From assembly GCF_037975245.1 (NCBI RefSeq), contig NC_092573.1, positions 14,776,001 through 14,840,000 on the forward strand: a DNA stretch of 64,000 nt, written 5' to 3'. Under the pieces are notes generated by a model, which was not told the DNA's origin, ran no database searches, and was given only the letters and a program-made list of their open reading frames with translations. Shown piece after piece: positions 33,866 to 60,625 of the stretch (position 1 is the first letter of the stretch; each line of letters starts with the position of its first letter). A program made the translations under genes and the position numbers. The DNA is from Apostichopus japonicus. Its lineage: Eukaryota > Echinodermata > Holothuroidea > Aspidochirotida > Stichopodidae.

Positions 33866-33902
<37 letters not shown>

Positions 33903-33960: not shown

Positions 33961-33966
33961 AGTAAA

Positions 33967-34793: not shown

Positions 34794-34944
34794 GGTAAGG
34801 TGGCCGAGTGGTCTAAGGCGCTGGTTTATTTTGTTAATGGGTGAGCCAGTGGGCTCGCCTTCAAATAAAAACAAATAAATTTAAAAAGCGCTGGTTTAGG
34901 CGCCAGTAATTGCGATGGCGTGTGCTAGAATCCCACCGCTGCCA
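34794..34944 (+). pseudogene. tRNA-Leu interrupted in the anticodon loop by a LINE tail
   Basis: The 5' half runs to GCGCTGGTTTA. An insert of about 60 bp follows, with the GGTGAGCC/GGCTCGCC hairpin and an A-rich end. Then GCGCTGGTTTA repeats and the 3' half continues to CCGCTGCCA. The repeat of 11 bp is a target-site duplication. The insert is 5'-truncated at TTTTGTTAATGGG. Confidence 0.88.
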
Positions 34945-35180
34945 GATATTAATATGTGTGTTATGTTTGGGAAGCTACTAGAAGACTTATTTCAAGAAAA
35001 TTATAGAAACATTGAATTGTTCGTTTCGAATTGATAGGAGACTTCCCGTCACACTGTAAATTGTGATGAAACAAATAAATATACAAATACAGATAGTTTC
35101 CGTAAATAACGAGTCACGAGTGTGTCCACTGAGGGCCGACTATACATAATTGTTTGTAAATAATGTATAATAGTGTACAG

Positions 35181-36075
35181 TTGCACAAACTAATTGAACT
35201 TATCTTAACAAGAAACTGTTTCGAGTTCAATAACCAATTCTATCTACAAAAGATCGGTTGCGCTATGGGTAGCCAAGCCTCTCCGGAAATCTGCGATATC
35301 GTCATGCATAGACTTGAAAACCAGATTTTACCGACAGATAATAAAATCTTAAAATGGCTCCGCTATAGAGATGACATTCTATTGCTCTACGACGGTACAC
35401 ATCAGGAACTTGAACAACTGGTAAACAGGTTGAATGAAATTCACCGCTTTTTAAAGTTTACGGTAGAAATATCACACACCGAGGTAACATACCTAGATTT
35501 GAAAATCTTCAAAGGTCCAAGGTTCGAAACCAATGGGTTATTAGACACCAAAGTCTACACCAAACCCACGGAAACCTTCCAATACCTCGACAGAAACTCT
35601 GCACACCCACTTGCCACTTTTAAAGGCTTCATTAAAGGGGAAGTAATACGCACGTCTCTGTAACAATGAGACTGATTTCTTACAGAAAAAGAACGCGTTC
35701 ACAAAGAAACTGTTACTCCGTAACTATAAGAAAGAGGAAATTGCCTCAGCCACGAAAGGCATAAAATTTGAAAACCGTGGGCAATACCTCACTAACAAAC
35801 CTAAACAAAAGGAACCACCACTGGTGTTCAAGCTTACCTATACACCCCATATCAAAACCACGCATTTGAAAAAAGCACTTTTGAAACATTGGCACTTAAT
35901 CTCGCAACACGCGGAATTATCCAAACTGTTTCCAAAAGAACCGATTCTAGCCTACGAAAGGGCCCCAAATCTCAAAGATTTACTTGTTAACTCAATGTTT
36001 CGTACTAACGAAGAATCAGCTGACCCTCAAGGTTCACACGAAGCTCTTTTAGATGCTCTTATAGCTGTACTATGA
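35181..36075 (+). pseudogene. Penelope-like reverse transcriptase, frameshifted 3' part
   Basis: The first frame (to 35663) has GCAMGSQASPEICDIVMHRLE and the catalytic WLRYRDDILLLY, then TYLDLKIFKG and YTKPTETFQYLD, in the order typical of Penelope-type reverse transcriptases. A frameshift near 35660 moves the rest to another frame: a KLLLRNYKKEE block, then FKLTYTPHIKTTHLKKALLKHW and EPILAYERAPNLKDLLV (35824-36075), a region that follows the RT domain in this family. The N-terminal RT motifs are missing. Confidence 0.85.
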
Positions 36076-36408
36076 GTCCATAAAAACTCGTGCACAGAAA
36101 GTAGATGCATTTTGAGAACGAGACGCCCAGGCCGAATATAAAATATTCAAAGGCTACTACTGATGAAGCTCCTCCTGTAAAGTTTGAGAGCAGAAACCGG
36201 TCTAGTTGGTCATAAGAACATACGCTAGTCTCTCCTACTATTAACAGTACACTCAATTCACCAAATAGGTGCAATTATGTTTCACCATGAGGAGCATGCT
36301 ATAAGTTCATGTTCCTCGGGCCCTCCCTTAAAAATACTTCAGGTTCTTGGCGACTACGTTGCGTTAGATAGTGTAAAACCACCTACACCCCCCCCCTTTC
36401 ATTTCACA
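35181..36408 (+). mobile_element. Penelope-like element fragment inserted in a tRNA spacer
   Basis: The flanking spacer is recognisable on both sides: ...AATAGTGTACAG before, ...ATATTATTTCGTG after, as in uninterrupted copies such as 37110-37145. The insert carries the 3' part of a Penelope-type reverse transcriptase (next entry) and then a non-coding end with a possible hammerhead-like motif (CTGATGA near 36164, GAAAC near 36195). No GIY-YIG endonuclease frame was found, so this is a truncated, non-autonomous copy. Confidence 0.75.
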
Positions 36409-36625
36409 TCATATTATTTCGTGCAATGTTGTATCTTTATAATAGTTCTTTGCATTGTGCTATAAATGTGTATTTCCTTCTTTTTGCCATCCAAATCATC
36501 AATAAGATTGATTTGTGTAATTATTCATATTTTATTTACAGTCTGGTACAATGAAATTGACAATAAAATGAAAGAAAAAATAGAAACATAATAACATGGA
36601 GGTTTTGTTAAGTGATTTCTGTATA

Positions 36626-36707
36626 GGTAGCGTGGCCGAGCGGTCTAAGGCGCTGGTTTAAGGCACCAGTCATTTCGATGGCGTGGGTTCGAATCCCACC
36701 GCTGCCA
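36626..36707 (+). tRNA. tRNA-Leu(AAG)
   Basis: Loop TTAAGGC; but with the UUCG variable arm and GAGCGG D loop otherwise typical of TAG copies. CGCTGCC acceptor; T5 terminator. Confidence 0.92.
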
Positions 36708-36801
36708 GGAGTACATTTTTAATTTTAGAAGCTACAAAATTTCAAGAAAATAACAGAAACATAATTTTATGGAGAAGATTTCGAATTGTGATTTCAGTAT
36801 A

Positions 36802-36950
36802 GGTTAGGTGGCAGAGTGTTCTAAAGCGCTGGCTTATTTTGTGAATGGGTGAGCCAGTGGGCTCACCTTCAAATCAAACAAGTTTTTAAAAAATCGCTGG
36901 TTTAGGCGCCAGACATTGCGATGGCGTGTGCTAGAATCCCACCGCAGCCA
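36802..36950 (+). pseudogene. tRNA-Leu interrupted in the anticodon loop by a LINE tail
   Basis: Same arrangement as 34794-34944: ...GCGCTGGCTTA, a tail with GGTGAGCC hairpin, then TCGCTGGTTTA and the 3' half ending CGCAGCCA. Extra mutations in both halves. Confidence 0.87.
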
Positions 36951-37454
36951 GATGTTAATGTGTGTGTTATGTTTGGGAAGCTACTAGAAGACTTATTTCA
37001 AGAAAATAATACAAACATTGAATTCTTCGTTTTCGAATTGATAGTTTCCGTAAATTTCGAGTCACGAGTGTGTCCACTGAGGGCCGACTATACATAATTA
37101 ATTGTAAATAATGTATAACAGTGTACAGGTGTGTATTATTTCGTGTTATGTTGTATGATTATAAAAGTTCTGTGCATTGTGTTATAAATGTGTATTTCCT
37201 TCTTTTTGCCATCCAAATGATCAATGTGATTGATTTGTGTAATTATGCATATTTTATTTACAGCTTTGTACAATGAAATTGACAATGAAATGAAAGAAAA
37301 AATAAATACATAACATAATTGTTAAGCTATTGTATGCTTTATAGAAGACTTCCTTTCACATTGTAGTATATTTGCACGTGAAAAAAAACAAAATAAATCA
37401 AATCAAATCAAATCAAACTTCATGGGGTATGTTTCTTTAAGTGATTTCTGTATA

Positions 37455-37536
37455 GGTAGCGTGGCCGAGTGGTCTAAGTCGCTGGTTTAAGGCACCAGTC
37501 ATTGCAATGGCGTGGGTTGGAATCTTACCGTTGCCA
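37455..37536 (+). pseudogene. tRNA-Leu(AAG), mutated copy
   Basis: Full length with loop TTAAGGC, but the B box reads GGTTGGAATC and the T stem no longer pairs (GTGGG with CTTAC). Shares all these changes with 37822. Probably not functional. Confidence 0.8.
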
Positions 37537-37638
37537 GATGTATTATTTTTTTCTTTTGGAATCAAAGAAGACATACTTTATAAACAAAAATAACATTAAC
37601 ATAATTTCATAGAGTTGTCGTATAATGATTTCAGTATA

Positions 37639-37720
37639 GGTAGCGTGGCCGAGTGGTCTAAGGCGCTGGTTTTAGGCACCAGTCATTTCGATGGCGTGGG
37701 TTCGAATCCCACCGTTGCCA
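37639..37720 (+). tRNA. tRNA-Leu(TAG)
   Basis: Loop TTTAGGC; CGTTGCC acceptor strand gives a G-U pair; UUCG variable arm; T4 run downstream. Confidence 0.92.
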
Positions 37721-37821
37721 GATGTAAATCTTTTCTGTGGGAATCTAAGATGACATATTTTATAAACAAACAATAGCAGTTACATAATTTCGTGGAGGTT
37801 TGGTTTAATGATTCCAGTGTA

Positions 37822-37903
37822 GGTAGCGTGGCCGAGTGGTCTAAGTCGCTGGTTTAAGGCACCAGTCATTGCAATGGCGTGGGTTGGAATCTTACCGTTG
37901 CCA
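37822..37903 (+). pseudogene. tRNA-Leu(AAG), mutated copy
   Basis: Duplicate of 37455-37536, with the same broken B box and T stem. Confidence 0.8.
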
Positions 37904-38005
37904 GATGTATTATTTTTTTCTTTTGGAATCAAAGAAGACATACTTTATAAACAAAAATAACATTAACATAATTTCATAGAGTTTTCGTATAATGGTTTCA
38001 GTATA

Positions 38006-38087
38006 GGTAGCGTGGCCGAGTGGTCTAAGGCGCTGGTTTTAGGCACCAGTCATTTCGATGGCGTGGGTTCGAATCCCACCGTTGCCA
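38006..38087 (+). tRNA. tRNA-Leu(TAG)
   Basis: Duplicate of 37639-37720. Confidence 0.92.
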
Positions 38088-38188
38088 GATGTAAATCTTT
38101 TCTGTGGGAATCTAAGATGACATATTTTATAAACAAACAATAGCAGTTACATAATTTCGTGGAGGTTTGGTTTAATGATTCCAGTGTA

Positions 38189-38270
38189 GGTAGCGTGGCC
38201 GAGTGGTCTAAGGCGCTGGTTTTAGGCACCAGTCATTTCGATGGCGTGGGTTCGAATCCCACCGCTGCCA
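38189..38270 (+). tRNA. tRNA-Leu(TAG)
   Basis: CGCTGCC acceptor, UUCG variable arm. Its right flank matches those of 32729 and 45991. Confidence 0.93.
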
Positions 38271-39093
38271 GATGAAATTATTTTCTTTTAGATGCGACGT
38301 ATGCACAATGTTATCAAGGTAACAAATGCCATTTGAAGCGTGGAGCAAGCGACATCATACTTTGATTGGGAAAGTCCAACTTTATCAATATTTGTTTATT
38401 TTAATTGTTTCATTATTTCTCGATATAACTTCTAACCTGAATAAATTTACTTGTAATCGTACATGTTATCCACATCTTTGGTGGAATTCAAGTCCTCACA
38501 CAGTTCCGAGATGTAACTGTCGTACAGTAAGGATTGTGACATTGTTAGAAGTCTGTTCAAGTTCAATCTGTTGCTACCCCCCCCCCCCCCCTTGTTAATC
38601 CACTTAATCTTTGGCTATATTGTTTAGCCAGCAGACAGTTAGTACCACAAGCGTGGATATCTCGCTTCCAACACTAGACTAGACATTCGAGTTACGAATG
38701 TATCCACTGAGGGCCAACAACATCATTAAGTGTAAATAACGTATTACAGTGTACAGGTGTGTATTATGTCGTGTAATGTTGTATGTTTATAATAGCTCTG
38801 TGCATTGTATTATGACGATAAAGGTGTAATTCCTTATTGTCATCTTCCAAATTGTTAATAAGATTAATTTGTGTAATATGTACAATTTTATTTACAGTTT
38901 TTTTACAATGGAATTGACAATAAAATGAAAGGAAAACAAAATAGAAATATAATTTCATGGAAAAGGTTTCGTTAAGTGATTTCTGTATAAGGTATACCTT
39001 ATTAACAGTTTATAGAATGAAATTGACAATAAAATGACAGAAAAAGAACAGAAACATAATTTCATGCAGGTTTTGTTAAGTGATTTCTGTATA

Positions 39094-39175
39094 GGTAGCG
39101 TGGCCGAGCGGTCTAAGGCGCTGGTTTAAGGCACCAGTCATTTCGATGGCGTGGGTTCGAATCCCACCGCTGCCA
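39094..39175 (+). tRNA. tRNA-Leu(AAG)
   Basis: Loop TTAAGGC with UUCG variable arm; GAGCGG D loop; CGCTGCC; T5 terminator. Confidence 0.92.
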
Positions 39176-39269
39176 GGAGTACATTTTTAATTTTAGAAGC
39201 TACCAAATTTCAAGTAAATAACAGAAACATAATTTCATGGAGAAGATTTCGTATTGTGATTTCAATATA

Positions 39270-39414
39270 GGTAAGGTGGCTGAGTGTTCTAAGGCGCTGG
39301 TTTATTTTGTGAATGGGTGAGCCAGTGGGCTCGCCTTCAAATGATTTTTTTTTTAAACTGCTGGTTTAGGCGCCAGTCATTGCGATGGCGTGTGCTCGAA
39401 TCCCACCACTGCCA
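39270..39414 (+). pseudogene. tRNA-Leu interrupted in the anticodon loop by a LINE tail
   Basis: GCGCTGGTTTA, insert starting TTTTGTGAATGGG with the hairpin and a T-rich stretch, then CTGCTGGTTTAGGCGCCAG and 3' half ending CACTGCCA. Counterpart of 47164. Confidence 0.87.
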
Positions 39415-39817
39415 GATGTTAATGTGTGTGTAATGTTTGGGAAGAAACTAGAAAACTTATTTCAAGAAAATAAAAGAAACATTGAATTGTTTGTTTCGAA
39501 TTGATCGTTTCCGTAAAAATTCGAATCACGAGTGTGTCCACTGAGGGCCGACAACATAATAAATTTTAAATAATGTATTACAGTGTACTAGTGTTTATTA
39601 TTTTGTGTAATGTTGTATGTTTATAATAGTTCTGTGCACTGTGTTATGACGATAAAGGTGTATTTCTTTCTATCAACCTTCCAAATTACCAATAAGATTA
39701 ATTTGTGTAATAAGGTTTATCTTATTAACAGTTTATAGAATGAAATTGACAATAAAATGACAGAAAAAATAACAGGAACATAAATTCATGCAGGTTTTGT
39801 TAAGTGATTTCTGTACA

Positions 39818-39899
39818 GGTAGCCTGGCCGAGTGGTCTAAGGCGCTGGTTTAAGGCACCAGTCATTGCGATGGCGTGGGTTCGGATCCCACCGTTGCCA
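39818..39899 (+). tRNA. tRNA-Leu(AAG), slightly degenerate
   Basis: Acceptor GGTAGCC gives a C-C mismatch at the last pair, and the T loop reads TTCGGAT. UGCG variable arm; T5 run downstream. Confidence 0.8.
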
Positions 39900-40000
39900 A
39901 ATGTAAACATTTTTCTGTTGGAATCTAAGAAAACATATTTCATAAACAAACATAACAGTAACATAATTTCGTGGAGATTTGGATTGATGGTTCCAGTATA

Positions 40001-40032
40001 GGTATAGCGTGGCCGATTATAGTCATTGTGAT
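40001..40032 (+). pseudogene. tRNA-Leu remnant
   Basis: GGTATAGCGTGGCCGA joins to TTATAGTCATTGTGATG: most of the D arm and the anticodon arm are lost, and the LINE remnant follows directly. Counterpart at 47888. Confidence 0.7.
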
Positions 40033-42387
40033 GTATTAAACACAATGGTTTTGTCTCTGATTTTTTCTCAATTAAATGAGGAGTTAGGCAATGATGTCCA
40101 ATTTCAGCTATATTTTATGTTCTTATCACAGAAGCCTTTCATAAAATAATTTGTAATAATCCGGAAATTTCTGGAATTAAAATATGCAACACCGAAATTA
40201 AATTGTTTCAGCATGCTGATGATACAACATTCTTTGTTTCAAATGTTACAAGTATATATGCAATTAAAGATACCATTAATATTTATGAACAAGCATTAGG
40301 TTCAAAATGTAACTTGGACTAAAATTAGCATTTAATAATAGACCAAACCCAAGATGAACCTAACGAATTTTAATTTTCCTGTAAGGAAAGATTATATTGA
40401 TGTTCTATGTGTTTCTATTGGAATGTGAATTGGATTATTGAAGCCCAAAACTGGAAAATAAACTAGAAATATGTACATCGTTACTAAAAAGATGGACATT
40501 TAGAAAGCTATCACTTAAAGGCAAAGTATTAGTTGTTAATTCCTTAATAATATCTAGGTTCGTGTATTTAATGAGTATTTTTACTGTGCCAAGTTGGGTA
40601 TTAGACTCAATTCGTCAGGCAGTAACTGATTTTATATGGAATGGGAAAACACCTCTAATCAGGTTTAAGTCATTAATGTTGCCTATAAGTAAAGTATGGC
40701 TCAAGCTATGTGACTTTGAAACTACACGAAATTCTTTAAGAATTAAATTAGTTAGCAAACTGTTAAATGGAATTGTAAAATGTCAAACTGAATGCATTAA
40801 TGTTATTTTTTCTTAATAAGTACATAAATTTAAAGCTTGGATTGGGTATTTTTCAAGTGGACCCTCAGACCAAATCTTTACATACTATACAACCTTTTGC
40901 CAGAGAAATACTACTCGCATGGATAAATATTACACAGGGCTAATTTGTAGAACCTATCACACGAGAGGAGATGCCTATCCAACCAATTTTCCATAACCCT
41001 CTCTTACGCGATGAGAACGGTGAAACTCTTTTTAACAGTATTTTTTTTTATTGATGGGGGTATAATTATGGTTGGTGACCTTATGTATGAGGTTATCCCA
41101 ACACAACTGCCATCAGAAGCCTTTCATGAATGCAGAACACTTACTAATCCCGATAATCCTATTTCCTTGAATGAAGTACAAGCGATTATTCCTATGGTAA
41201 TGAATGTATTACCCGAGAACTGGTTGACAGAGATCTATTCATCCGACAGGGTGGTATCTACACAATCCGACTTACAATACGCCATTCATTCTCGATGTGG
41301 TTGTGAAACTATTGATGGTGCTGTAAAGGATATCTAACCTTTTACGTACTTTAAGAAATAATACCCTAACGGTGAAATCTATTGGAAGAATACTTATGCA
41401 GATCTATCTTTTGAAACTAGGTGGGAAAGTGTTTTTAAAACGCCTAAGAGTTATACAGATGCTGAAATTGATTATAATATAATGCATTACATTTTATTTA
41501 CGAATGAAATATTGTACAAATTCAAAATTATTGATTCCCCTCTGTGTACATTTTGCAGAAGTTCGATTGAAACAATACATCACCCTTTTTTTATAAATTG
41601 CCCTAAAATATTACCCCTTTGGGAAAATTTAACCAACAAACTAAATAAACTACATTTTATTGACAGCCATTATCGTTGGACCTTAGCAGCATTATTTGGT
41701 CAAGGTCTTCATGCAAAACATTAAGATAGTCTCCATATAGACTATATATTTAATGTTTATCAATCTGTAATATGGAACGCCGTAATGCAATTATTTATAA
41801 TGGTGGTACTATTAATATTACAGCCTATTTTCATAATCCTCTAAAGAAGAACTTACGTCTTATTTATGAGGTTTACGTGAGCCATAAAAATTTCGTCTTT
41901 TTCAGTTTTATGGAAAAGGTAAAATTCTACTTTTAGCCGACAAAGATTATACCTACCAGTACTTTTTAGATAGAGGCTAAAGCAATATAATTTTTGAGCC
42001 GATTAACTGTATAATAAGTTATTATTATTTATAATGGTGGTACTATACTATACTAATGCCTGTATACGCATATTTAAGGAGGGCTATATCTGTAAAAAAA
42101 TTCAGCCTAGTATTAATTCAATGAGTTATTATTGACTTGAATAACTATTCCTAATTTCTCAAAGTAATATATACTATATGAGATTACAATCGAATTAAGT
42201 AAAACGTATTTAGTAATATCATACCAACTATGGTATAAGAACAACATTTGTGAGTTACTAACAATAATTATATTTTTTATTTTAATACACAAGTTCTGTA
42301 AGAACTTATTGTATATATTGTTTGGTGAATGGGTGAGCCAGTGGGCTTGCCTTCAAATAAAAATTTAAAAACAAAATATAAAAAAGT
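40033..42387 (+). mobile_element. Decayed Tx1/L1-like LINE, copy A, ending in a tRNA-Leu
   Basis: Broken reverse transcriptase ORF2 with the catalytic block FQHADDTTFFVSN (near 40208-40245), then SLKGKVLVVNSLIISRFVYL and DFIWNGKTP (40510-40655), FIDGGIIMVGDLMYEVIP (41044-41100) and a C-terminal CTFCRSS...H...C block (about 41545-41615). It is cut by stops and frameshifts and lacks the endonuclease. The 3' end is AAGAACTTATTGTATATATTG..., the GGTGAGCC hairpin, AAATAAAA, then an A-rich tail that meets CGCTGGTTTAAGGCACCAG, the tRNA-Leu anticodon arm. Confidence 0.85.
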
Positions 42388-42444
42388 CGCTGGTTTAAGG
42401 CACCAGTCATTGCGATGGCGTGGGTTCAAATCCCACCGTGGCCA
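42388..42444 (+). pseudogene. tRNA-Leu 3' half at the LINE copy A junction
   Basis: Begins CGCTGGTTTAAGGCACCAG, continues through the variable arm, T arm (GGTTCAAATCC) and CGTGGCCA. The 5' half is missing because the LINE occupies it. Confidence 0.85.
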
Positions 42445-42555
42445 GATGTGAATGTTTAGTTTTGGAATATTAGAAGACATATTTTATAAACAAAAAAGGA
42501 AAAGAAAAAACAGAAACATAATTTCATAGAGGTTTCGTGTAATGGTATCAGTATA

Positions 42556-42637
42556 GGTAGCGTGGCCGAGTGGTCTAAGGCGCCAGTTTTAGGCACCAGT
42601 CATATCGATGGCGTGGGTTCGAATCCCACCGTTGCCA
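42556..42637 (+). tRNA. tRNA-Leu(TAG), altered anticodon stem
   Basis: Loop TTTAGGC, but the 5' anticodon strand reads CCAGT, so pairing with ACCAG is lost. The variable-arm loop is ATCG. Probably weak or inactive. Confidence 0.75.
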
Positions 42638-42732
42638 GGAGTAAATTTTTAATTTTAGAAGATAATGCCATATATCAAGTAAATAACAGAAACCATTTTC
42701 ATGGAGAAGTTTCGTTCGGTGATTTTTGTATA

Positions 42733-42814
42733 GGTAGCGTGGCCGAGTGGTCTAAGGCGCTGGTTTAAGGCACCAGTCATTGCGATGGCGTGGGTTCGAA
42801 TCCCACCGTTGCCA
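42733..42814 (+). tRNA. tRNA-Leu(AAG)
   Basis: UGCG variable arm; CGTTGCC; T7 terminator. First AAG gene of the 649-bp units. Confidence 0.92.
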
Positions 42815-42930
42815 GATGTATTTTTTTCTTTTGGCAAAGAAGACATACTTATAAAAAAAATAACATAAACATAAATTCATAGAGGTTAATTTAAGAAGCT
42901 AATGCCATATATCAAGAAAATAACAGAATA

Positions 42931-43106
42931 GGTAGCGTGGCCGAGTGTTCTAATGCGCTGGTTGAGAAGAAGAACTTATTGTATATATTGTTTTAGTGAA
43001 TGGGTGAGCCAGTGGGCTCGCCTTCAAATAAAAGAAAAATGAAAAAACGGACTGGCTTTATACGACCGTCATTGCTAAGCCGTGGGTTCGAATCCCACCG
43101 TTGCCA
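42931..43106 (+). pseudogene. tRNA-Leu interrupted by a longer LINE tail
   Basis: The 5' half ends GCGCTGGTTGAGAAG. The insert starts AAGAACTTATTGTATATATTG, has the hairpin and an AAATAAAAG end. The 3' half is diverged (ACTGGCTTTATACGACCG) but keeps the B box and CGTTGCCA. Its 5' truncation point differs from the insert class at 34794. Confidence 0.87.
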
Positions 43107-43203
43107 GGAGTAATTTTTTTTTTGGAAGATAAGGAGACATATTTCAAGAAAATAACAGAGGCACAATTTCATGGAGAATATTTCGTTAAGTGATTTCTGT
43201 TTA

Positions 43204-43285
43204 GGTAGCGTGGCCGAGTGGTCTAAGGCGCTGGTTTTAGGCACCAGTCATTTCGATGGCGTGGGTTCGAATCCCACCACTGCCA
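43204..43285 (+). tRNA. tRNA-Leu(TAG)
   Basis: CACTGCC acceptor strand gives one C-A mismatch; UUCG variable arm; T6 terminator. Confidence 0.87.
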
Positions 43286-43381
43286 GAAGTAATTTTTTAA
43301 TTTTAGAAGATAATGCCATATTTTAAGAAAATTACAGAAACTATTTTCATGGAGGAGATTTCGTTCGGTGATTTTTGTATA

Positions 43382-43463
43382 GGTAGCGTGGCCGAGTGGT
43401 CTAAGGCGCTGGTTTAAGGCACCAGTCATTGCGATGGCGTGGGTTCGAATCCCACCGTTGCCA
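43382..43463 (+). tRNA. tRNA-Leu(AAG)
   Basis: Copy of 42733-42814 in the second 649-bp unit. Confidence 0.92.
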
Positions 43464-43579
43464 GATGTATTTTTTTCTTTTGGCAAAGAAGACATACTTA
43501 TAAAAAAAATAACATAAACATAAATTCATAGAGGTTAATTTAAGAAGCTAATGCCATATATCAAGAAAATAACAGAATA

Positions 43580-43755
43580 GGTAGCGTGGCCGAGTGTTCT
43601 AATGCGCTGGTTGAGAAGAAGAACTTATTGTATATATTGTTTTAGTGAATGGGTGAGCCAGTGGGCTCGCCTTCAAATAAAAGAAAAATGAAAAAACGGA
43701 CTGGCTTTATACGACCGTCATTGCTAAGCCGTGGGTTCGAATCCCACCGTTGCCA
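43580..43755 (+). pseudogene. tRNA-Leu interrupted by a LINE tail
   Basis: Copy of 42931-43106 in the second 649-bp unit. Confidence 0.87.
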
Positions 43756-51727: not shown

Positions 51728-51796
51728 GATGTATTTTTTCTTTTGGCAAAGAAGACATACTTATAAACAAAATAACATAAATAATTGAAAATCAAC

Positions 51797-53194
51797 ATGG
51801 CTGCTCTTAGTCGAGACACGTCCATACAGCTTCACCTAGATTGTAGTGAGGGGAAGTCAGTTATTTTTAATCTTTTGAAGGAAAAGTGCATAGATCCCGG
51901 AGAACATCTAACGGCGGTTCAGGAACTCCCCGGTAGACTATGGGACGTGACTTTCAAAACAGTAGATTTGAAGAAGAAGTTTTGGCCTGCTCTATCGAGT
52001 GCAGATTGCTGCACTGCAACAACATATACCGGTTGCACGACGCTAGTTACGGTTTTGCATGTACCATATGAATTGGGGGACAACGTGGTGAGGTATATTC
52101 TAGGCCGTTACGGTAAAGTTGTGAGTGGTCGTTTCCTTACACTTTCCGACTACCCACAGGTGTTTAATGGGATTCGGCAGTATCAGGTTGAAATCACCAA
52201 AGACATCCCCTCATCCTTAAGACTTGGTGGAAGAAACTGTTGGGTGCGATATAGAGGCCAGCCCAGAACGTGCCTGAAATGTGGAGCAAACGGACATGAA
52301 GCAAAACACTGTGACCAGATAAAGTGCTACAACTGTCACGAAATTGGACATACAGCAAAGCAATGTGTGACTGAAGTTAAGTGCACCGTATGCGAAAAGT
52401 TGGGGCACACCTCTCGTAGCTGCCCAATTTCCTTTGCGAACAAAATCAGCCCTACCGCCAGAGCCTGGGTCAAGGGTCCTGCTGTCGTGCAACAAGAGGC
52501 AACAATGTCGGAAGAAACTGACGAGCCAACGGCAAAAGTAACTGACGGCAACACCAATGCCGAAACGGTCGATACACAAGGTATGACACAGGACCTAGAG
52601 AAAAAAGAAGAAAGTCAAACAATCAACGATAGCGACACAGATTTGTTCGAAAACACAGAGGTTATGGAGACAATGTCTTTAGCATCAAGTAGCTGGGCCA
52701 CCCCTCAAACAGAACATCGGGAAGTATCGAACAGCGAAAGAAGACAGTCTAAACCTTCACCTGAAATATCGTCACAAGAGGACATCGTTGGGGATAATAA
52801 ATTTCGTCCCAGCTTAAGACCCAAGAGAAAAAGTGTCTCCCAACCTGAAGCAGTCAAAAGACCAGAAAGATCCAGGTCAAGTCTTCGCTTCCCCGCCGAG
52901 GACCCCAAAGATAGTGTGAAAATGTCACAAATTTTTCTAGAGGATGAGCCATGGCACTCATGTAAAGCAAAGGGATGCCCGGAAGTTTTTTCTGAGTATC
53001 ACGTTTTGAAAGAGCACCTGTTAAACGCCCACCCAAAGCTGAAACCGTCAAAGTACCCATGTGCTATGAAGTCATGCAAGAATACGTGTAAATCCCCCCA
53101 GGAATGGATCTTACATATGGCTGACGAGCACCCAGAATTTGTCAGTAAAAAGGAGATAGAATTTTTCGACAGGTATTTTTTAAGGAATGCCTGA
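51797..53194 (+). CDS. LINE ORF1: nucleic-acid-binding protein with three CCHC knuckles
   Basis: 465 residues from ATG at 51797 (an upstream TTG in the same frame is not a likely start). An N-terminal region of about 155 residues has no motif I recognise. Three zinc knuckles follow at about residues 158-212: CLKCGANGHEAKHC, CYNCHEIGHTAKQC and CTVCEKLGHTSRSC. A long acidic, Ser/Thr/Glu-rich stretch (about 235-375) follows. Near the C-terminus are two C2H2-like fingers: CKAKGCPE...H..HLLNAHP and CAMKSCKN...ILHMADEHP. It should package element RNA, like a Gag-type ORF1p. The three CCHC motifs match Tx1-clade ORF1 proteins more than mammalian L1 ORF1p. Confidence 0.92.
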   Translation: MAALSRDTSIQLHLDCSEGKSVIFNLLKEKCIDPGEHLTAVQELPGRLWDVTFKTVDLKKKFWPALSSADCCTATTYTGCTTLVTVLHVPYELGDNVVRYILGRYGKVVSGRFLTLSDYPQVFNGIRQYQVEITKDIPSSLRLGGRNCWVRYRGQPRTCLKCGANGHEAKHCDQIKCYNCHEIGHTAKQCVTEVKCTVCEKLGHTSRSCPISFANKISPTARAWVKGPAVVQQEATMSEETDEPTAKVTDGNTNAETVDTQGMTQDLEKKEESQTINDSDTDLFENTEVMETMSLASSSWATPQTEHREVSNSERRQSKPSPEISSQEDIVGDNKFRPSLRPKRKSVSQPEAVKRPERSRSSLRFPAEDPKDSVKMSQIFLEDEPWHSCKAKGCPEVFSEYHVLKEHLLNAHPKLKPSKYPCAMKSCKNTCKSPQEWILHMADEHPEFVSKKEIEFFDRYFLRNA

Positions 53195-53251
53195 TCATCG
53201 GAATCTCATTGTGGTATACATCTCGTTCTGTTCTTTACTTTATCTCTCTCT

Positions 53252-56200
53252 ATGGCTACTATGAACCTATCGATTGCTTCACTTAACGTTAATGGACTAA
53301 GAGACAACAAAAAATGTTCAAAGATTTTACAATGGGCTAAGATATTCAATTTTGATATTATTCTTCTGCAAGAACTGTATTTGTCGGATAGTGCCGACTC
53401 TCAATTTTTCAGACGTCAATGGGGTGGTCCTTTCATTTTCTCCCCTAGTTCTTCTAATCACTCTTGTGGGGTGGGTATTGCTTTCAGTAGTAAACTGTGT
53501 TGCGTCATTTCGCAAGTAAGACACGATACCTCTGGTCGTTGCATTTCTGCCCTCTGCACTATTCATAACAGTACTGTACGGGTTTGTAACATTTATGCGC
53601 CTAACGCCCCGAGTGAAAGGAAAGCGTTTTTCAGGCAAATTTACACTTACACCCGTGGTTACGATCCTATTATTTTGGGGGGCGATTTTAATTGTGTAAT
53701 GGATGACATCGATCGCTCAAACATTTCGTCCAACCGTTCTGCTTTTGTAGGCCGGGATGAGATCAACGATCTTATTGTCACTTATAATCTTGTTGATTGT
53801 TATAGGGTTATCCACCCCACCATACCCGGTCATACCTGGTTTCGTTTTAACAACAGTCAAAGTTCTAGACTTGATCGAATCTACTCTTCGAGAGATTTTT
53901 TTGTCAACAAAGCGACTACGTCGCCGATCCCTTATTCTGACCATAAGCCTATTCAGGTCAACATCAAAATTCCTCACACTGCTACTCGGGGGAAAGGTTA
54001 TTGGAAGTACAATGTGTCTCTTAACAATGATAAGGAATTCTGCAAAGAATTACGTGTTTATTATAAGCTTTGGTCTACTCTGAAGCCAGGTTTTAATGCT
54101 TTATCTGATTGGTGGGAGAACGTTAAGTCTAGAATTAAAACGCTTGCGGTTCGGCACAGCTCCCGCATTGCTCGTCAGAAGAGAAATCGGCTTAAAGAGC
54201 TTCAAACGCTTTGTGCGACTTCAAATTCTCAGGAAATCGATGATATTATTAACACTGAGTTAAGGGGTGCTTACATTCGTTCTAGAGCTAAATTTCTTGA
54301 AGAAGGGGAAAAACCATCTGCCTTTTTCTTTAGAAAAGAAAAACGTCAAGCCGATCAGAAAGTTGTTCATCAAGTCCGCAAACCGGACGGTAATATTACC
54401 TGCAATAATAAGGAAATTATAGAGGTTTTCCACAAATTCTTTAGTGATCTCTATTCCAACCACGAAGGGTTTGACGAGAGTTCTCAAGATGTTTTCATTA
54501 ATAGTTTGCACAACATGTTAAATGATGAGGACATTGAAAGTCTTGAAAAACCAATCACTCTAGATGAGATAAAGATTGCTCTGTCGCTTGCTTCCAATAA
54601 CAAATCTCCGGGTATTGATGGTCTTCCATATGAATTCTATTCCTCCTTCCTAGATATGTTGGGCGAAGACCTCCTCGGTGTTTATAACAACATTTTCAAA
54701 ACTGGCACTATGTCAATGTCTCAGCGTACAGGCATCGTTACCCTTCTCCCAAAGAAAGGTGATAAGACTGACCCAACCAATTGGCGTCCAATCAGTCTGC
54801 TTAACACAGACTATAAATTGATCTCGAAGGTTCTACAAATCAGAATGTCTAAAGTATTGCCCACTATTGTAAACGAGCATCAAACATGTTCTGTCCCTGG
54901 CAGATCTATTCACGATAATATGTTCATAATTAGAGATATAATTGATTATTCAGCCATGAAGAAAATTGATTGTGCCCTCATCTCAATCGACCAACACAAA
55001 GCTTTTGATAAAGTTTCTTGGTCATTTCTTATGAGAGTTCTCGAGAAGTTACGGTTTGGTAGCAATTTTCGAAAATGGGTGACTATTTTGTACAACAATA
55101 TTTACAGTCGTATTCTTATCAAGGGAAATCTCTCTGATATCATACCCATTGCTCGAGGGGTGAGGCAGGGCTGCCCCCTTTCACCGGTTCTGTATGTGTT
55201 ATTTATTGAGCCAATTTCTAGATATATTAATAGTTGCAATAGCATCCGGGGCTTTCCCATCCCTGGTGGGAGTGGCAGACGTGTTAAATTTCTTCAATAC
55301 GCGGATGACGCCACATGTGTTGCAACCAATATTGGTGATATCGCACAGTATTTTAATGTGTTTAAACTTTTTCAAAAAGCTACCGGTGCTTCTGTAAACA
55401 TGAGCAAGACTTGTGGCTTAAAGTTGGGTACGTTTGCCTCTCGTCAGTTACCCACCAACATTCATTGGAGTACCTCTTCAATCAAAATCACGGGTGTGAC
55501 CTTTGGTTCAAAGGAGGCTGTCCATTGTAATTGGGCTACAAAGGTTAAATCTGCCACTCTACGTGCTAAATCTTGGAGCAGCAGACATTTGACTCTCCTA
55601 GGCAAAGTACTGGTTACTAATACTGTTATTTATCCACTGTTTTACTTTGTGGCCCCCGTTTTTCGTGTGCCTGATAGTGTGGTCAAGGAAGTAAACAAAG
55701 CCGTTTTCTCCTTTATTTGGGGTGAAAACAAACCCGACCTTGTGTCTAGGAAAGTCATCATCTTGGACAGACTACAAGGCGGCTTAGGTTTAGATAGTTT
55801 TAGAAATAAGATGGATGCATTGTTAATTAGACCGTTATTTACCTTGCTGACTCGCATGCAAGACCCGCCTATCCATTTTATTATAGCTCGTTTCTTTCTG
55901 GCCATGCCACTGCGTAGAGTCTTCCCTCAGTTATGGTCCAATACGCGGCCAAACTCTGCCGTTTGTCCACCCTCGTTACTTTACGCAAGTGATATCATTA
56001 GGAGGTTACATTCAATGGACAGCCTTTTCTTTCAGTCCAGTAAGAGTATCAAACTTATTACTAAATCCCTTCAACCCAGTGGTGCCAACTTAATTGCTGT
56101 TAGAGATTACCCAACGTTCCCTTGGGAGACCATCTGGAAGCTGGCTTTTAGTAACATGCTAGGCAACAAATTAATGGATTTTCAATGGCGTCTAGCACAT

Positions 56201-56695
56201 CACATTTTGTACACCGGTAAAAGGATAAAGGACTGGGGAATGGGTGACGGTATTTGTCCTTGCGAGCAGTGTAACGAAATTGAGACTATTTCTCACATTT
56301 TCTGGGAATGCCCAAAAGCCAAGACAGTTTTGATTTGGGTAGAGAAAATTTTTCACAGATTAGCTGGTGATAACAGCTCATTTAACATGAAACTGTATTT
56401 GTTTGGATTCCCTTGTGTCGACTTTCCACAGATAGTTTTCAACAGAATTTGGTTTATCTTTTGTATTACGAAATTTGCTATTTGGAAGTCAAGGTGCCTT
56501 CACATTTTTGAAGACCAAGCCCAAACTGGGACTGCTCTTCTCTCGATTATTGCAAAAGAAATTAAAACCCGAGTAGAAGCAGACTTCAGTCGTCTTACAA
56601 AACATCAGTTCAGTAAACTTTGGACGTCCGGAACGTCTTTTGTTAAAATTAAAAAAGACAAACTTCATATTAATCTCAAGACAAATTTCTCTTAA
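53252..56695 (+). CDS. LINE ORF2: endonuclease-reverse transcriptase
   Basis: 1147 residues, full length. The APE-type endonuclease (about 1-235) has SLNVNGL, LLQEL with the catalytic Glu, NIYAPN, GGDFNC and YSDHKPI. The reverse transcriptase (about 440-760) has LLPKKGDKTDPTNWRPISLL, SIDQHKAFDKV (motif A), GVRQGCPLSPVLYVLF (motif B) and FLQYADDATCV (motif C, two catalytic Asp). The C-terminal region has a Cys/His block, CPCEQCNEIETISHIFWEC (about 1006-1025). It nicks target DNA and copies the element RNA by target-primed reverse transcription. No stop or frameshift is seen and all catalytic residues are present. Compared with the decayed LINEs of this cluster, residues and 3' UTR differ clearly, so this is a separate family. 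Confidence 0.95.
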   Translation: MATMNLSIASLNVNGLRDNKKCSKILQWAKIFNFDIILLQELYLSDSADSQFFRRQWGGPFIFSPSSSNHSCGVGIAFSSKLCCVISQVRHDTSGRCISALCTIHNSTVRVCNIYAPNAPSERKAFFRQIYTYTRGYDPIILGGDFNCVMDDIDRSNISSNRSAFVGRDEINDLIVTYNLVDCYRVIHPTIPGHTWFRFNNSQSSRLDRIYSSRDFFVNKATTSPIPYSDHKPIQVNIKIPHTATRGKGYWKYNVSLNNDKEFCKELRVYYKLWSTLKPGFNALSDWWENVKSRIKTLAVRHSSRIARQKRNRLKELQTLCATSNSQEIDDIINTELRGAYIRSRAKFLEEGEKPSAFFFRKEKRQADQKVVHQVRKPDGNITCNNKEIIEVFHKFFSDLYSNHEGFDESSQDVFINSLHNMLNDEDIESLEKPITLDEIKIALSLASNNKSPGIDGLPYEFYSSFLDMLGEDLLGVYNNIFKTGTMSMSQRTGIVTLLPKKGDKTDPTNWRPISLLNTDYKLISKVLQIRMSKVLPTIVNEHQTCSVPGRSIHDNMFIIRDIIDYSAMKKIDCALISIDQHKAFDKVSWSFLMRVLEKLRFGSNFRKWVTILYNNIYSRILIKGNLSDIIPIARGVRQGCPLSPVLYVLFIEPISRYINSCNSIRGFPIPGGSGRRVKFLQYADDATCVATNIGDIAQYFNVFKLFQKATGASVNMSKTCGLKLGTFASRQLPTNIHWSTSSIKITGVTFGSKEAVHCNWATKVKSATLRAKSWSSRHLTLLGKVLVTNTVIYPLFYFVAPVFRVPDSVVKEVNKAVFSFIWGENKPDLVSRKVIILDRLQGGLGLDSFRNKMDALLIRPLFTLLTRMQDPPIHFIIARFFLAMPLRRVFPQLWSNTRPNSAVCPPSLLYASDIIRRLHSMDSLFFQSSKSIKLITKSLQPSGANLIAVRDYPTFPWETIWKLAFSNMLGNKLMDFQWRLAHHILYTGKRIKDWGMGDGICPCEQCNEIETISHIFWECPKAKTVLIWVEKIFHRLAGDNSSFNMKLYLFGFPCVDFPQIVFNRIWFIFCITKFAIWKSRCLHIFEDQAQTGTALLSIIAKEIKTRVEADFSRLTKHQFSKLWTSGTSFVKIKKDKLHINLKTNFS

Positions 56696-56937
56696 GGTTT
56701 TGTTTTTCTTTTCTAAGGTCTTAATATATACTTCCTTTGTTCTGCATTAACTGTTTGGATTATTTTTTTTTGTTTACTAAATTCTGTTTAGTACTTGTCA
56801 AAAAGTGCACTAAGTGCACTTGTTTTATCTGTACATTTTGATTTTGGTTGAATAAAGTGAACATTAAAAAAAAAAAAAAAAAGAAAATAACAGAAACCAT
56901 TTTCATGGAGAAGATTTCGTTTGGTGATTTCTGTATA

Positions 56938-57019
56938 GGTAGCGTCGCCGAGTGGTCTAAGGCGCTGGTTTAAGGCACCAGTCATTGCGATGGCGTGGGT
57001 TCGAATCCCACCGTTGCCA
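56938..57019 (+). tRNA. tRNA-Leu(AAG)
   Basis: First gene after the intact LINE. GCGTCGCCGAG alters the A box by one base; UGCG variable arm; CGTTGCC; T5 terminator. Confidence 0.88.
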
Positions 57020-57116
57020 GGAGTAAATTTTTAATTTTAGAAGATAATGCCATATTTCACGAACATAACAGAAACATTTTCATGGAGAAGATTTCGCTGG
57101 GTGATTTTCATAAAAA

Positions 57117-57288
57117 GGTATCGTGGCCGAGTGTTCTAACGCGCTGTTTTAGAATAACTTATTGTATATGTTGTTTTAGTGAATGGGTGAGCCAGTGGGC
57201 TCGCCTTCTAATAAAAAAGCATTAAAAAGCGGGCTGGTTTTATACGACCGTCAATGCTAAGCGGTATGCTCGAATCGTACCGTTGACA
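57117..57288 (+). pseudogene. tRNA-Leu interrupted by a LINE tail
   Basis: GCGCTGTTTTA then GAATAACTTATTG, intact hairpin, diverged 3' half with a damaged B box (GCTCGAATCG) and end CGTTGACA. Confidence 0.86.
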
Positions 57289-57390
57289 GGAGTAAATGTT
57301 TTTGGGTTTTTTAAGCTAAGAAGACATATTCCAAGGAAATAACAGAAGCACAATTTGATGGAGAAGATTTCGTTTGGTGATTTCTGTATA

Positions 57391-57472
57391 GGTAGCGTGG
57401 CCGAGTGGTCTAAGGCGCTGGTTTTAGGCACCAGTCATTTCGATGGCGTGGGTTCGAATCCCACCGCTGCCA
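57391..57472 (+). tRNA. tRNA-Leu(TAG)
   Basis: Consensus copy; T5 terminator. Start of the first 809-bp unit. Confidence 0.93.
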
Positions 57473-57568
57473 GGAGTACATTTTTAATTTTAGAAGATTA
57501 TGCCATATTTCAAGAAAATAACAGAAACCATTTTCATGGAGAAGATTTCGTTTGGTGATTTCTGGATA

Positions 57569-57650
57569 GGTAGCGTGGCCGAGTGGTCTAAGGCGCTGGT
57601 TTTAGGCACCAGTCATTTCGATGGCGTGGGTTCGAATCCCACCGCTGCCA
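57569..57650 (+). tRNA. tRNA-Leu(TAG)
   Basis: Consensus copy. Upstream element reads TGATTTCTGGATA, one base off its neighbours. T6 terminator. Confidence 0.93.
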
Positions 57651-57746
57651 GGAGTACTTTTTTAATTTTAGAAGATAATGCTATATTTCAAGAAAATAAC
57701 AGAAACCATTTTCATGGAGAAGATTTCGTTTGGTGATTTCTGTATA

Positions 57747-57828
57747 GGTAGCGTGGCCGAGTGGTCTAAAGCGCTGGTTTAAGGCACCAGTCATTGCGAT
57801 GGCGTGGGTTCGAATCCCACCGTTGCCA
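57747..57828 (+). tRNA. tRNA-Leu(AAG)
   Basis: D arm CTAAAGC; UGCG variable arm; CGTTGCC; T5 terminator. Confidence 0.92.
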
Positions 57829-57925
57829 GGAGTAAATTTTTAATTTTAGAAGATAATGCCATATTTCACGAAAATAACAGAAACATTTTCATGGAGAAGA
57901 TTTCGCTGGGTGATTTTCATAAAAT

Positions 57926-58097
57926 GGTATCTTGGCCGAGTGTTCTAATGCGCTGCTTTAGAAGAACTTATTGTATATGTTGTTTTAGTGAATGGGTGAG
58001 CCAGTGGGCTCGCCTTCTAATAAGAAAGCATTAAAAAACGGGCTGGCTTTATACGACCGTCAATGCTAAGCGGTATGTTCGAATCCCACCGTTGACA
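57926..58097 (+). pseudogene. tRNA-Leu interrupted by a LINE tail
   Basis: GCGCTGCTTTA then GAAGAACTTATTG, intact hairpin; 3' half ends CGTTGACA. Confidence 0.86.
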
Positions 58098-58199
58098 GGA
58101 GTAAATGTTTTTGGGTTTTTTAAGCTAAGACGACATATTCCAAGGAAATAACAGAAGCACAATTTGATGGAGAAGATTTCGTCTGGTGATTTCTGTATA

Positions 58200-58281
58200 G
58201 GTAGCGTGGCCGAGTGGTCTAAGGCGCTGGTTTTAGGCACCAGTCATTTCGATGGCGTAGGTTCGAATCCCACCGCTGCCA
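58200..58281 (+). tRNA. tRNA-Leu(TAG)
   Basis: T stem GTAGG/CCCAC carries one A-C mismatch; otherwise consensus. T6 terminator. Confidence 0.88.
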
Positions 58282-58377
58282 GGAGTACTTTTTTAATTTT
58301 AGAAGATAATGCTATATTTCAAGAAAATAACAGAAACCATTTTCATGGAGAAGATTTCGTTTGGTGATTTCTGTATA

Positions 58378-58459
58378 GGTAGCGTGGCCGAGTGGTCTAA
58401 GGCGCTGGTTTTAGGCACCAGTCATTTCGATGGCGTGGGTTCGAATCCCACCGCTGCCA
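58378..58459 (+). tRNA. tRNA-Leu(TAG)
   Basis: Consensus copy; T6 terminator. Confidence 0.93.
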
Positions 58460-58555
58460 GGAGTACTTTTTTAATTTTAGAAGATAATGCTATATTTCAA
58501 GAAAATAACAGAAACCATTTTCATGGAGAAGATTTCGTTTGGTGATTTCTGTATA

Positions 58556-58637
58556 GGTAGCGTGGCCGAGTGGTCTAAGGCGCTGGTTTAAGGCACCAGT
58601 CATTGCGATGGCGTGGGTTCGAATCCCACCGCTGCCA
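58556..58637 (+). tRNA. tRNA-Leu(AAG)
   Basis: UGCG variable arm with the CGCTGCC acceptor strand usual for TAG copies; T5 terminator. Confidence 0.93.
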
Positions 58638-58733
58638 GGAGTACATTTTTAATTTTAGAAGATAATGCTTTATTTCAAGAAAATAACAGAAACCATTTTC
58701 ATGGAGAAGATTTTGTTTGGTGATTTCTGTATA

Positions 58734-58815
58734 GGTAGCGTGGCCGAGTGGTCTAAGGCGCTGGTTTAAGGCACCAGTCATTGCGATGGCGTGGGTTCGA
58801 ATCCCACCGCTGCCA
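58734..58815 (+). tRNA. tRNA-Leu(AAG)
   Basis: Same sequence type as 58556; T6 terminator. Confidence 0.93.
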
Positions 58816-58912
58816 GGAGTAATTTTTTAATTTTAGAAGATAATGCCATATTTCACGAACATAACAGAAACATTTTCATGGAGAAGATTTCGCCTGGTGG
58901 TTTTCATAAAAA

Positions 58913-59084
58913 GGTATCGTGGCCGAGTGTTCTAACGCGCTGCTTTAGAAGAACTTATTGTATATGTTGTTTTAGTGAATGGGTGAGCCAGTGGGCTCGC
59001 CTTCAAATAAAAAAGAATTAAAAAACGGGCTGGTTTTATACGACCGTCAATGCTTAGCCGTATGTTCGAATCCCACCGTTGCCA
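58913..59084 (+). pseudogene. tRNA-Leu interrupted by a LINE tail
   Basis: GCGCTGCTTTA then GAAGAACTTATTG, intact hairpin, AAATAAAAAAG, 3' half ending CGTTGCCA. Confidence 0.86.
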
Positions 59085-59186
59085 GGAGTAAATGTTTTTG
59101 GGTTTTTTAAGCTAAGACGACATATTCCAAGGAAATAACAGAAGCACAATTTCATGGAGAAGATTTCGTTTGGTGATTTCTGTATA

Positions 59187-59223
59187 GGTAGCGTGGCCGA
59201 GTGATCGAATCCCACCGTTGCCA
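59187..59223 (+). pseudogene. tRNA-Leu pseudogene, middle deleted
   Basis: GGTAGCGTGGCCGAGTG joins to ATCGAATCCCACCGTTGCCA; D loop, anticodon arm and variable arm are gone. Confidence 0.8.
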
Positions 59224-59343
59224 GATGTATTTTTTCTCTTTTGGAATCAAAGAAGACATACAAGCTTATTAAGGCATATTTTATAAAAGTGAACAGGAAC
59301 ATGATTTTATTGAGAACGTTCGTTTGTTTAGCGTTTCCAGAAT

Positions 59344-59420
59344 AGTAACTGTGACCGAGTGGTTCAAGGCGCTGGTTTAAAGCACCAAACATTGAGATGG
59401 CTAGGGTTCGAATCCCCATG
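59344..59420 (+). pseudogene. Degenerate tRNA-Leu
   Basis: AGTAACTGTGACCGAGTGG, CGCTGGTTTAAAGCACCAA and GGTTCGAATCC are recognisable; acceptor ends are lost. Confidence 0.65.
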
Positions 59421-59515
59421 TAAATGATTTCTTTTGGAAGCTTAGAAGGCATACTTTATTTAAAAGAACAGAAACATTATTTCATGGAGAAGGTTTCGTT
59501 TAATGTTTCCACATA

Positions 59516-59545
59516 GGTAACGTGGCCGAGTGGTCTAAGGCGCTG
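59516..59545 (+). pseudogene. tRNA-Leu 5' half at the LINE copy C junction
   Basis: GGTAACGTGGCCGAG through AAGGCGCTG, then unrelated LINE sequence begins within the anticodon stem. Confidence 0.8.
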
Positions 59546-60625
59546 AAATATACTCTTCAGATGATATTGTTTCATCACAGCATCAAGGCACTCACATTCA
59601 CGAGCGGTTCAGAGGATACAGATCCTTCCAAGCTTCCGTGCAAGCAGACGTCTAGCCTGTTGCGCAATAGTGTTAGAAATACCCTAAGGGTATACCCATT
59701 GGGATAATGAGTTTGGCGTTATTGATTAATTTATAAAGGCTGGAAAAAGACATTTAAAGGAGTCCGAGTTGTTTTCACGATGCAGATATTGATTTTAAAA
59801 TGGGGCAGAACTCTATACGAACGATAAACTCTACAAAGTTAACATAGTTGACTCTCCGGATACATGGTACGACCATTCATTTGTTCATCGATTGCCCTAT
59901 TAACTCCACATTATGTAGTACTGTAAACACGAAAACTTAACTGTATTTATACAAAAGACGACATCAATCAATGAAAGCTATTACTCAGCTTGGGCTTCAC
60001 AATAGCCGCAAGGAAGGACATCTTTGTAGCTGCCTGCTCAATACTTATAAGTCTACAATCTGGAACAGCCTAGTCATTTACCTTAGCAATAATTATCATA
60101 TCAAATATAGAACGTCTTTTCCCTAGCAGTTTGAAGAAAAAATTATAGACCTACTTTATAATGTGTGAAATGGAAACAATAACATTGACAGAAGCTCTTT
60201 TACAATATTTTCGCACAAAATGATGTGGTGCTCTCTAAAAGCAACTTTACGACCTACTCCTATCATTTCGACAGGGGTTAGTGAACCCCATTTGCTTCTA
60301 CTGGAAATAGCTGGGGTTTTTGCTTCACTGGTCACTGTAACGTGGGTTTTTGTTAGCTTTATATTGACTTCATTATACATTTTCATATCACGATTCGCCA
60401 CTTAGTTGAAAGGGGAACTTCATGTAAATAATTGTGAGTCTAGCACGTTTCGAGAAATTTGTATTCGTATTTATAGTATAATCATTTCAACCGTTGCTAA
60501 TAGCAACATTTCTAAGTTATTATCAATAACTTTATCCTTTATCTTACAAAACAATTTCAGTAAGAACTTATTGTATATACCTTTTTGCGAATGGGGGTGA
60601 GCCAGTGTGCTCAACTTTTCGACAA
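59546..60625 (+). mobile_element. Decayed Tx1/L1-like LINE, copy C, starting in a tRNA-Leu
   Basis: Directly follows a tRNA-Leu 5' half. Scrambled frames match the C-terminal region of copies A and B: a TNDKLYKVNIVDSP-like segment (about 59810-59855) against TNEILYKFKIIDSP, and AACATTGACAG...CTCTAAAAGCAACTTTACG (about 60180-60250) against the corresponding 3' part. It ends AAGAACTTATTGTATATACC and a decayed hairpin (GGTGAGCCAGTGTGCTCAAC). No tRNA 3' half was recognised after it. More decayed than A and B, so older. Confidence 0.7.

Follow-up and report, generated by a model that had tools for sequence, protein, structure and literature searches.

The window analysed here is a stretch of 64,000 nucleotides from the sea cucumber Apostichopus japonicus (positions 14,776,001 to 14,840,000 of contig NC_092573.1, assembly GCF_037975245.1), and it contains an array of host tRNA-Leu genes (32729..58815, + strand) that represents a supply of targets for a long interspersed nuclear element (LINE). 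Across the whole window ARAGORN identified 38 intact tRNA-Leu genes, all located on the + strand and divided equally between the anticodons AAG and TAG (19 each), and the stretch CGCTGGTTTA occurs 27 times compared with an expectation of 0.05. A blastn search with the 64-nt LINE tail (TAAGAACTTATTG...GTGAATGGGTGAGCCAGTGGGCTCGCCTTCAAATAAAA) yielded 16 matches in the window, all of them between 34.8 and 60.6 kb, that is, in the tRNA-Leu array; an additional match to a 16-nt AT-rich stretch at position 33911 (E 0.11) was taken as chance. Thirteen of the 16 tail copies split a tRNA-Leu gene in or next to the anticodon, at or beside CGCTGGTTTA, which bears out the claim of a preliminary description of this DNA that the genes are split at one place.

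These insertions can be grouped into four classes, all on the + strand. Class I comprises four copies whose insert starts with TTTTGTGAATGGG or a close variant; the first (34794..34944) consists of the 5' half of the tRNA, a 59-nt insert with the tail hairpin, the target-site duplication (TSD) GCGCTGGTTTA and the 3' half, and its duplicates are found at 36802..36950, 39270..39414 and 47164..47308. The inserts of the nine class II copies start with GAAGAACTTATTG or a close variant. Three of these copies (42931..43106, 43580..43755 and 44229..44404) belong to a 649-bp unit that is present three times between 42733 and 44682, each unit holding a split tRNA-Leu gene along with an intact AAG and an intact TAG gene, and the flanks of the split gene are identical among the units; the others are located at 44682..44852, 50574..50743, 51194..51365, 57117..57288, 57926..58097 and 58913..59084. 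Class III consists of two longer relics, which are 90% identical to each other and include reverse transcriptase (RT) and C-terminal LINE coding sequence: copy A (40003..42444) extends from the RT palm to the 3' tail (approximately 40033-42387), followed by GTCGCTGGTTTAAGG and the tRNA-Leu 3' half, and copy B (47889..50285; LINE from approximately 47921) has the same junctions. Both had been taken for full LINE coding sequence, which turned out to be wrong, as they begin inside the RT domain and are only about 2.35 kb long. Class IV is a single relic near 59.5 kb (59516..60640) with a more diverged tail region (76% identity to copy A), in which the 5' half of a tRNA-Leu gene up to GGCGCTG is followed by the diverged LINE sequence (59546-60612) and a decayed 3' half. 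Two tRNA-Leu pseudogenes without the block from D-loop to anticodon are also present (34139-34196 and 59187-59223), the first of which resembles the tRNA piece that precedes relics A and B.

In classes I and II the insert is preceded by ...GCGCTGGTTTA (or a decayed form of it) and has an A-rich end, after which (G)CGCTGGTTTA (or a decayed form) appears again together with the 3' half of the tRNA. The resulting TSD, which the preliminary description had not named, is about 11 nt long, starts at the 3' strand of the D-stem and reaches the anticodon. It covers the anticodon stem, a footprint to be expected of target-primed reverse transcription. On the 3' side of class III an A-rich stretch is followed by GTCGCTGGTTTAAGG, which fits the site, and on its 5' side the relics join a tRNA copy without anticodon stem through a 13-nt stretch that matches the tRNA at 12 positions (none of 5000 shuffles was as good, for A and B each). 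The 5' side of class IV is clear, with a tRNA-Leu 5' half ending in GGCGCTG; its 3' side resembles tRNA no more than expected by chance (811 of 5000 shuffles did as well). The target variants differ from class to class: GCGCTGG in class I, ACGCGCTG or ACGCGCCG in five of the nine 5' copies of class II, and GTCGCTGG in class III, the last of which is also present in the intact copies at 37455 and 37822. The 3' copy of class II reads CTGG(C/T)TTTA. The split halves of classes I and II are decayed and carry 2-7 changes over the first 24 nt and 5-14 over the 3' part (one or two of the latter being owed to where the piece was cut), whereas the 38 intact genes average 0.37 and 0.53; A and B show two changes each in the tRNA 3' part.

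The 3' site is common to classes I, II and III and the 5' ends differ, so that the pattern described earlier, inserts with a single 3' junction, a hairpin and an A-rich tail yet with different 5' starts, was recovered in all three classes. The tail hairpin consists of nine pairs, and over 17 tails 95.4% of the cells are paired, compared with 33-57% for slid versions. Changes on both sides were seen in one pair only, and column shuffles performed as well (115 of 500 for cells paired, 60 of 500 for the covariation score); covariation was therefore rejected as proof, and support for the hairpin comes from pairing. In folding tests the A-type tail and its core were more stable than shuffled sequences (1 and 0 of 200 as good, respectively), and the class IV tail was no better than its shuffles (89 of 200 as good).

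The element belongs to the L1 group of LINEs (L1/Tx1-type), judged from the translated frames. A copy with two open reading frames (ORFs) free of stop codons was found at locus L056, inside satellite X (described below) between GGTTGTGCTCTGTACC and GGTTGCTCTGTACC. Its ORF1 (356 aa) contains CCHC zinc knuckles, and its ORF2 (1288 aa) contains APE endonuclease, RT and zinc-binding zf-RVT domains according to Pfam. CCHC knuckles in ORF1 go with the Tx1 clade, and other clades of the L1 group can have them as well. Among solved structures in PDB the closest to this ORF2 is human LINE-1 ORF2p (6e-78), ahead of R2 (4e-13), and the RT pieces of class III match LINE-1 ORF2p entries and one RNA-directed DNA polymerase entry (best 3.5e-14), with no R2 match at E up to 1. 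The ORF2 of locus L057 is 98.4% identical to that of L056, and the class III reading is 74.6% identical to the latter over 579 aa. An intact master copy, which the preliminary description had proposed to look for, was thus found in one sense and not in another: an open-ORF copy exists at L056, but it resides in a satellite and not in tRNA-Leu, and of the Leu subfamily itself only decayed copies and no intact one were seen. The window contains a second LINE (51785-56880, +) in a tRNA-Leu spacer, with open ORF1 (469 aa, CCHC) and ORF2 (1166 aa, APE-RT) and a poly(A) tail; the L056 ORF2 is 33% identical to it over 894 aa. It is bordered by the near duplication AAAATAACA(T/G)AAA and is without the tail hairpin of the split-tRNA family. 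It brings to mind Dewa, which was reported from the tRNA-Leu spacer, although a single copy cannot show specificity.

The 671.6-Mb assembly containing the window was searched for related tails. A 34-nt tail with up to three mismatches gave 17 matches, 15 of which are located in this tRNA-Leu array, one on C2, where a satellite X unit follows, and one on C11, where the tail is followed by GTGCTCTGTA..., which is X-like and could not be confidently assigned. Such a genome-wide collection had been suggested earlier as a check on target specificity, and its outcome does not refute it. A more degenerate 28-nt tail gave 59 matches. Flanks were read for 29 of these, of which 15 are tRNA-Leu, one is tRNA-Asn, one is 5S rRNA, seven are satellite X (six in long windows and an X-like one, L069), three are satellite Y and two are unassigned; the tRNA-Asn copy with an exact TSD, the tRNA-Ser copies and class IV fall outside the 59. 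A search with relic A gave at least 46 matches in the genome, and eleven 10-kb windows with LINE matches were read, with four pieces on C17 left out. Twenty-five of the at least 46 matches are one and the same 313-bp piece of ORF2, which at both loci compared appears to belong to a different repeated unit. This piece (90-92% identity) occurs at L034-L054 and four more places, and five of the 21 loci L034-L054 also carry satellite X units. No relatives were found in viral contigs, and an exact 21-nt match in a named Subtercola genome was taken as chance.

The wider relatives share the hairpin and are found in tRNA-Asn, tRNA-Ser, 5S rRNA and satellite sequences, so that a single LINE lineage has several targets, tRNA-Leu among them. 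At L060 the LINE tail and its A-rich end are followed by GCGCGTTCGGCTGTTAACCG of tRNA-Asn(GTT), and GCGCGTTCGGCTGT also precedes the insert, giving an exact TSD of 14 nt; a second tail at this locus is followed by GCGTTCGGCTTTTAACC, and at L059 the 5' end of a LINE is preceded by GTTCGGCTGA. ARAGORN finds 19 tRNA-Asn genes in L059 and 16 in L060. L062 contains seven tRNA-Ser(GCT) genes. One tail at this locus has the hairpin as well and is followed by GGCGATGGACTGCTAATC, and GGCGGTGAAC stands before the insert; the two sides of the TSD GGCGATGGAC agree at 8 of 10 positions, and two more A-rich junctions at the same place or at most 2 nt away are decayed. The 3' junction used by these tRNA copies matches that in tRNA-Leu. 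One copy on C17 lies before a 5S rRNA gene, which is cut at its 3' end and scores 36.3 bits in Rfam (gathering score 38; E 1.6e-6). Tails are also carried by satellite X (155-bp period) and satellite Y (165-bp spacing in the listed places, for example at C2:17149544-17171197), the 23-nt motif of the latter being present at 51,589 places with up to two mismatches. To our eye both satellites look tRNA-like by their D-arm-like and B-box-like stretches. At the satellite X copy L058 the insert is bordered on both sides by GGTTGCTCTCTGT, including a CT insertion that no other site has, and this gives good support for a genuine TSD. TSDs were thus seen in tRNA-Leu classes I and II, in tRNA-Asn, in tRNA-Ser and in the satellite X copies L056 (one side two nt longer) and L058. 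The proposal that the family targets tRNA-Leu is supported by the close tails, 15 of 17 of which are in the array, and has to be widened for the lineage, which also uses tRNA-Asn, tRNA-Ser, one 5S gene and satellites.

Taken together, we are confident that the sequences interrupting the tRNA-Leu genes are 3' fragments of an L1/Tx1-type LINE family, which likely entered a fixed site in the anticodon arm through target-primed reverse transcription, probably in three or four separate events that were followed by duplication within the array. The tRNA-Leu genes are split at one spot and the relatives occupy the matching spot in tRNA-Asn and tRNA-Ser; the lineage therefore likely lands on that patch. 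An APE-type endonuclease would nick the bottom strand immediately ahead of the D-stem's 3' strand (in front of GCGC for Leu and Asn, and of GGCG for Ser), reverse transcription of the 3' hairpin RNA would be primed from this nick, and the top strand would be cut 10-14 nt further on, in the anticodon loop. The 3' copy of class II suggests entry into a TAG gene, in which case the second cut would fall after nt 36 in tRNA-Leu(TAG) and tRNA-Asn, and about four nt earlier in tRNA-Ser. Subfamilies likely switched among tRNA isotypes, 5S rRNA and satellite repeats. We lean towards a model in which the patch from D-stem to anticodon loop serves as a portable address, such that subfamilies hopped among Leu, Asn, Ser, 5S and tRNA-like satellites (the latter with up to tens of thousands of units) while keeping the 3' hairpin and, in tRNA genes, the structural position; the satellites might then provide a refuge for an active copy while tRNA-directed subfamilies die out. 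A different possibility is that the element is led to tRNA and 5S genes by the RNA polymerase III transcription complex rather than by the DNA sequence, with the endonuclease setting only the final base. The recognised targets (tRNA-Leu, tRNA-Asn, tRNA-Ser and one 5S gene) are indeed all transcribed by RNA polymerase III, yet the insertions occupy a fixed place inside the gene, in contrast to the TRE5-A type, described as inserting at a distance (PMC3706591), no transcription of the satellites X and Y is known, and the tRNA target patches have the GCG start in common, which makes guidance of this kind rather unlikely.

The number of insertion events was addressed with trees of the 150-nt downstream flanks (53 rows) and the 100-nt upstream flanks (54 rows). 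In the downstream tree class I groups with the intact tRNA at 44950 (support 99/95; 90-93% identity of the downstream flanks by blastn), and in the upstream tree class III groups with the intact copies at 37822, 38189 and 45991 (98/89) and six of the nine class II copies group with 42733, 43382 and 44031 (93/74). Tests of single clades rejected all three pairings for the downstream flanks (I+II, p 3e-64; I+III, 2e-50; II+III, 0.0115) and two for the upstream flanks (I+III, 5e-5; II+III, 0.001). Class II alone forms no clade in the best trees, yet the tests did not reject such a clade (0.41 and 0.09). The 13 split copies do not stand for 13 events; they represent two types (4 + 9) that were multiplied by array duplication. 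The relics A and B add a third event, and the relic at 59.5 kb is probably a fourth; from the flank trees, the clade tests and the differing target variants, at least three separate insertion events, or four counting class IV, are therefore likely. Repeated insertion at a fixed site, as originally proposed, is accordingly retained with respect to separate events and given up with respect to the number of copies, most of the 13 being duplicates, three of them in the 649-bp triplication. The alternative that one LINE inserted into one tRNA-Leu gene, spread by array duplication and acquired its differing 5' ends through later deletions would agree with this excess of duplicates and with the upstream test of classes I and II. 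The flank phylogeny, named earlier as the way to recognise a single event, nevertheless rejected such an origin in five of the six class-pair tests, including every downstream pairing. In addition, classes I and II both retain the 5' boundary CTGGTTTA, albeit in decayed form in several class II copies, and chance deletions would not bring it back; moreover, target variants and nearest intact units differ from class to class; we thus regard a single insertion as very improbable.

Several points weigh against the reading of separate insertions by a lineage with one structural address. A single clade of classes I and II is not rejected by the upstream flanks (p 0.09), the three class II copies of the triplication are separate from the rest of their class in the upstream tree, and the tree tool flagged long branches downstream, among them those of 44950 and class I. 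Flanks could also be mixed by gene conversion within arrays, which would blur the event count. Class III is without the 5' and class IV without the 3' copy of the TSD. Neither satellite X nor satellite Y is identified as tRNA by Rfam, ARAGORN finds no tRNA in X (L055-L058) or in Y (L021 and L061, with 25 and 29 units), and the duplicated stretch of satellite X starts with GGTTG, a few nt upstream of the Leu/Asn site. The assignment of the broader tails covers 29 of 59 flanks, among which L022 and L068 could not be confidently assigned. Finally, the Leu subfamily is known from a single array, so that specificity for tRNA-Leu and specificity for this array cannot be separated.

Target-specific LINEs in or near tRNA genes are already known, and the family described here is a variant inside the anticodon arm, with the NeSL group, Dewa and the DNA transposon Dada-tL as precedents; we found no LINE described from the anticodon arm of tRNA-Leu in the open-licence literature. 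Dewa, Mutsu and Keno are members of the Tx1 clade. These zebrafish LINEs are described as residing in the tRNA-Leu spacer, in 5S rRNA and in U2 snRNA, respectively (PMC3706591, citing Kojima & Fujiwara 2004), and the target-specific Tx1 families are listed as APE-type (PMC4640811). As far as these accounts go, they share with the present family a strict small-RNA-gene target, and differ from it in that the site here is inside the tRNA gene, in the anticodon arm, and at the matching position in Leu, Asn and Ser. The NeSL group includes non-LTR (long terminal repeat) retrotransposons specific for tRNA genes (NeSL-1_TV in tRNA-Pro, LIN15_SM in tRNA-Arg, LIN25_SM in tRNA-Glu; PMC4640811) and is similar by description, but the NeSL clade is stated to encode a restriction-like endonuclease (PMC4640811), and membership was ruled out by the APE domain in the ORF2 of L056. 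TRE5-A of Dictyostelium is likewise a LINE that prefers tRNA genes, but according to the available description it inserts at a distance from the target, guided by host DNA-binding proteins (PMC3706591). Dada-tL is described as strictly specific for a site near the tRNA-Leu anticodon, and its target, when written for the tRNA strand, spans almost the same stretch (PMC8869645); it differs in having a DDE transposase and no reverse transcription. That the inserts are such a DNA transposon, a short interspersed nuclear element or tRNA introns can practically be dismissed despite this shared location, given the LINE coding sequence, A-rich 3' tails, variable 5' ends and TSDs of 10-14 nt, compared with the 6-7 bp and the opposite orientation at the anticodon reported for Dada-tL (PMC8869645), and given the decay of the split tRNA halves relative to the intact genes.

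Other features were noted in the window. An RT remnant (35160-36072, +; RVT_1 in Pfam) occupies another spacer of the array, and by its look we take it to be Penelope-like. An open frame of 348 aa (5471-6517, -) appears by eye to be another LINE-type RT, and a protein-like minisatellite with FDGSGIL repeats (14681-15281) has open frames on both strands. The exons at 25046-27389 and 63286-63639 (both -) presumably encode proteins resembling nicotinic acetylcholine receptor subunits.

If our interpretation is correct, a LINE lineage of the APE type uses one structural spot in several tRNA genes, and the change of target in a target-specific LINE would become accessible to study within a single genome. 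The open-ORF copy beside its satellite target may make the cutting rule open to biochemical study. A further consequence would be that a DNA transposon, Dada-tL, and a LINE have converged on nearly the same patch of tRNA-Leu.

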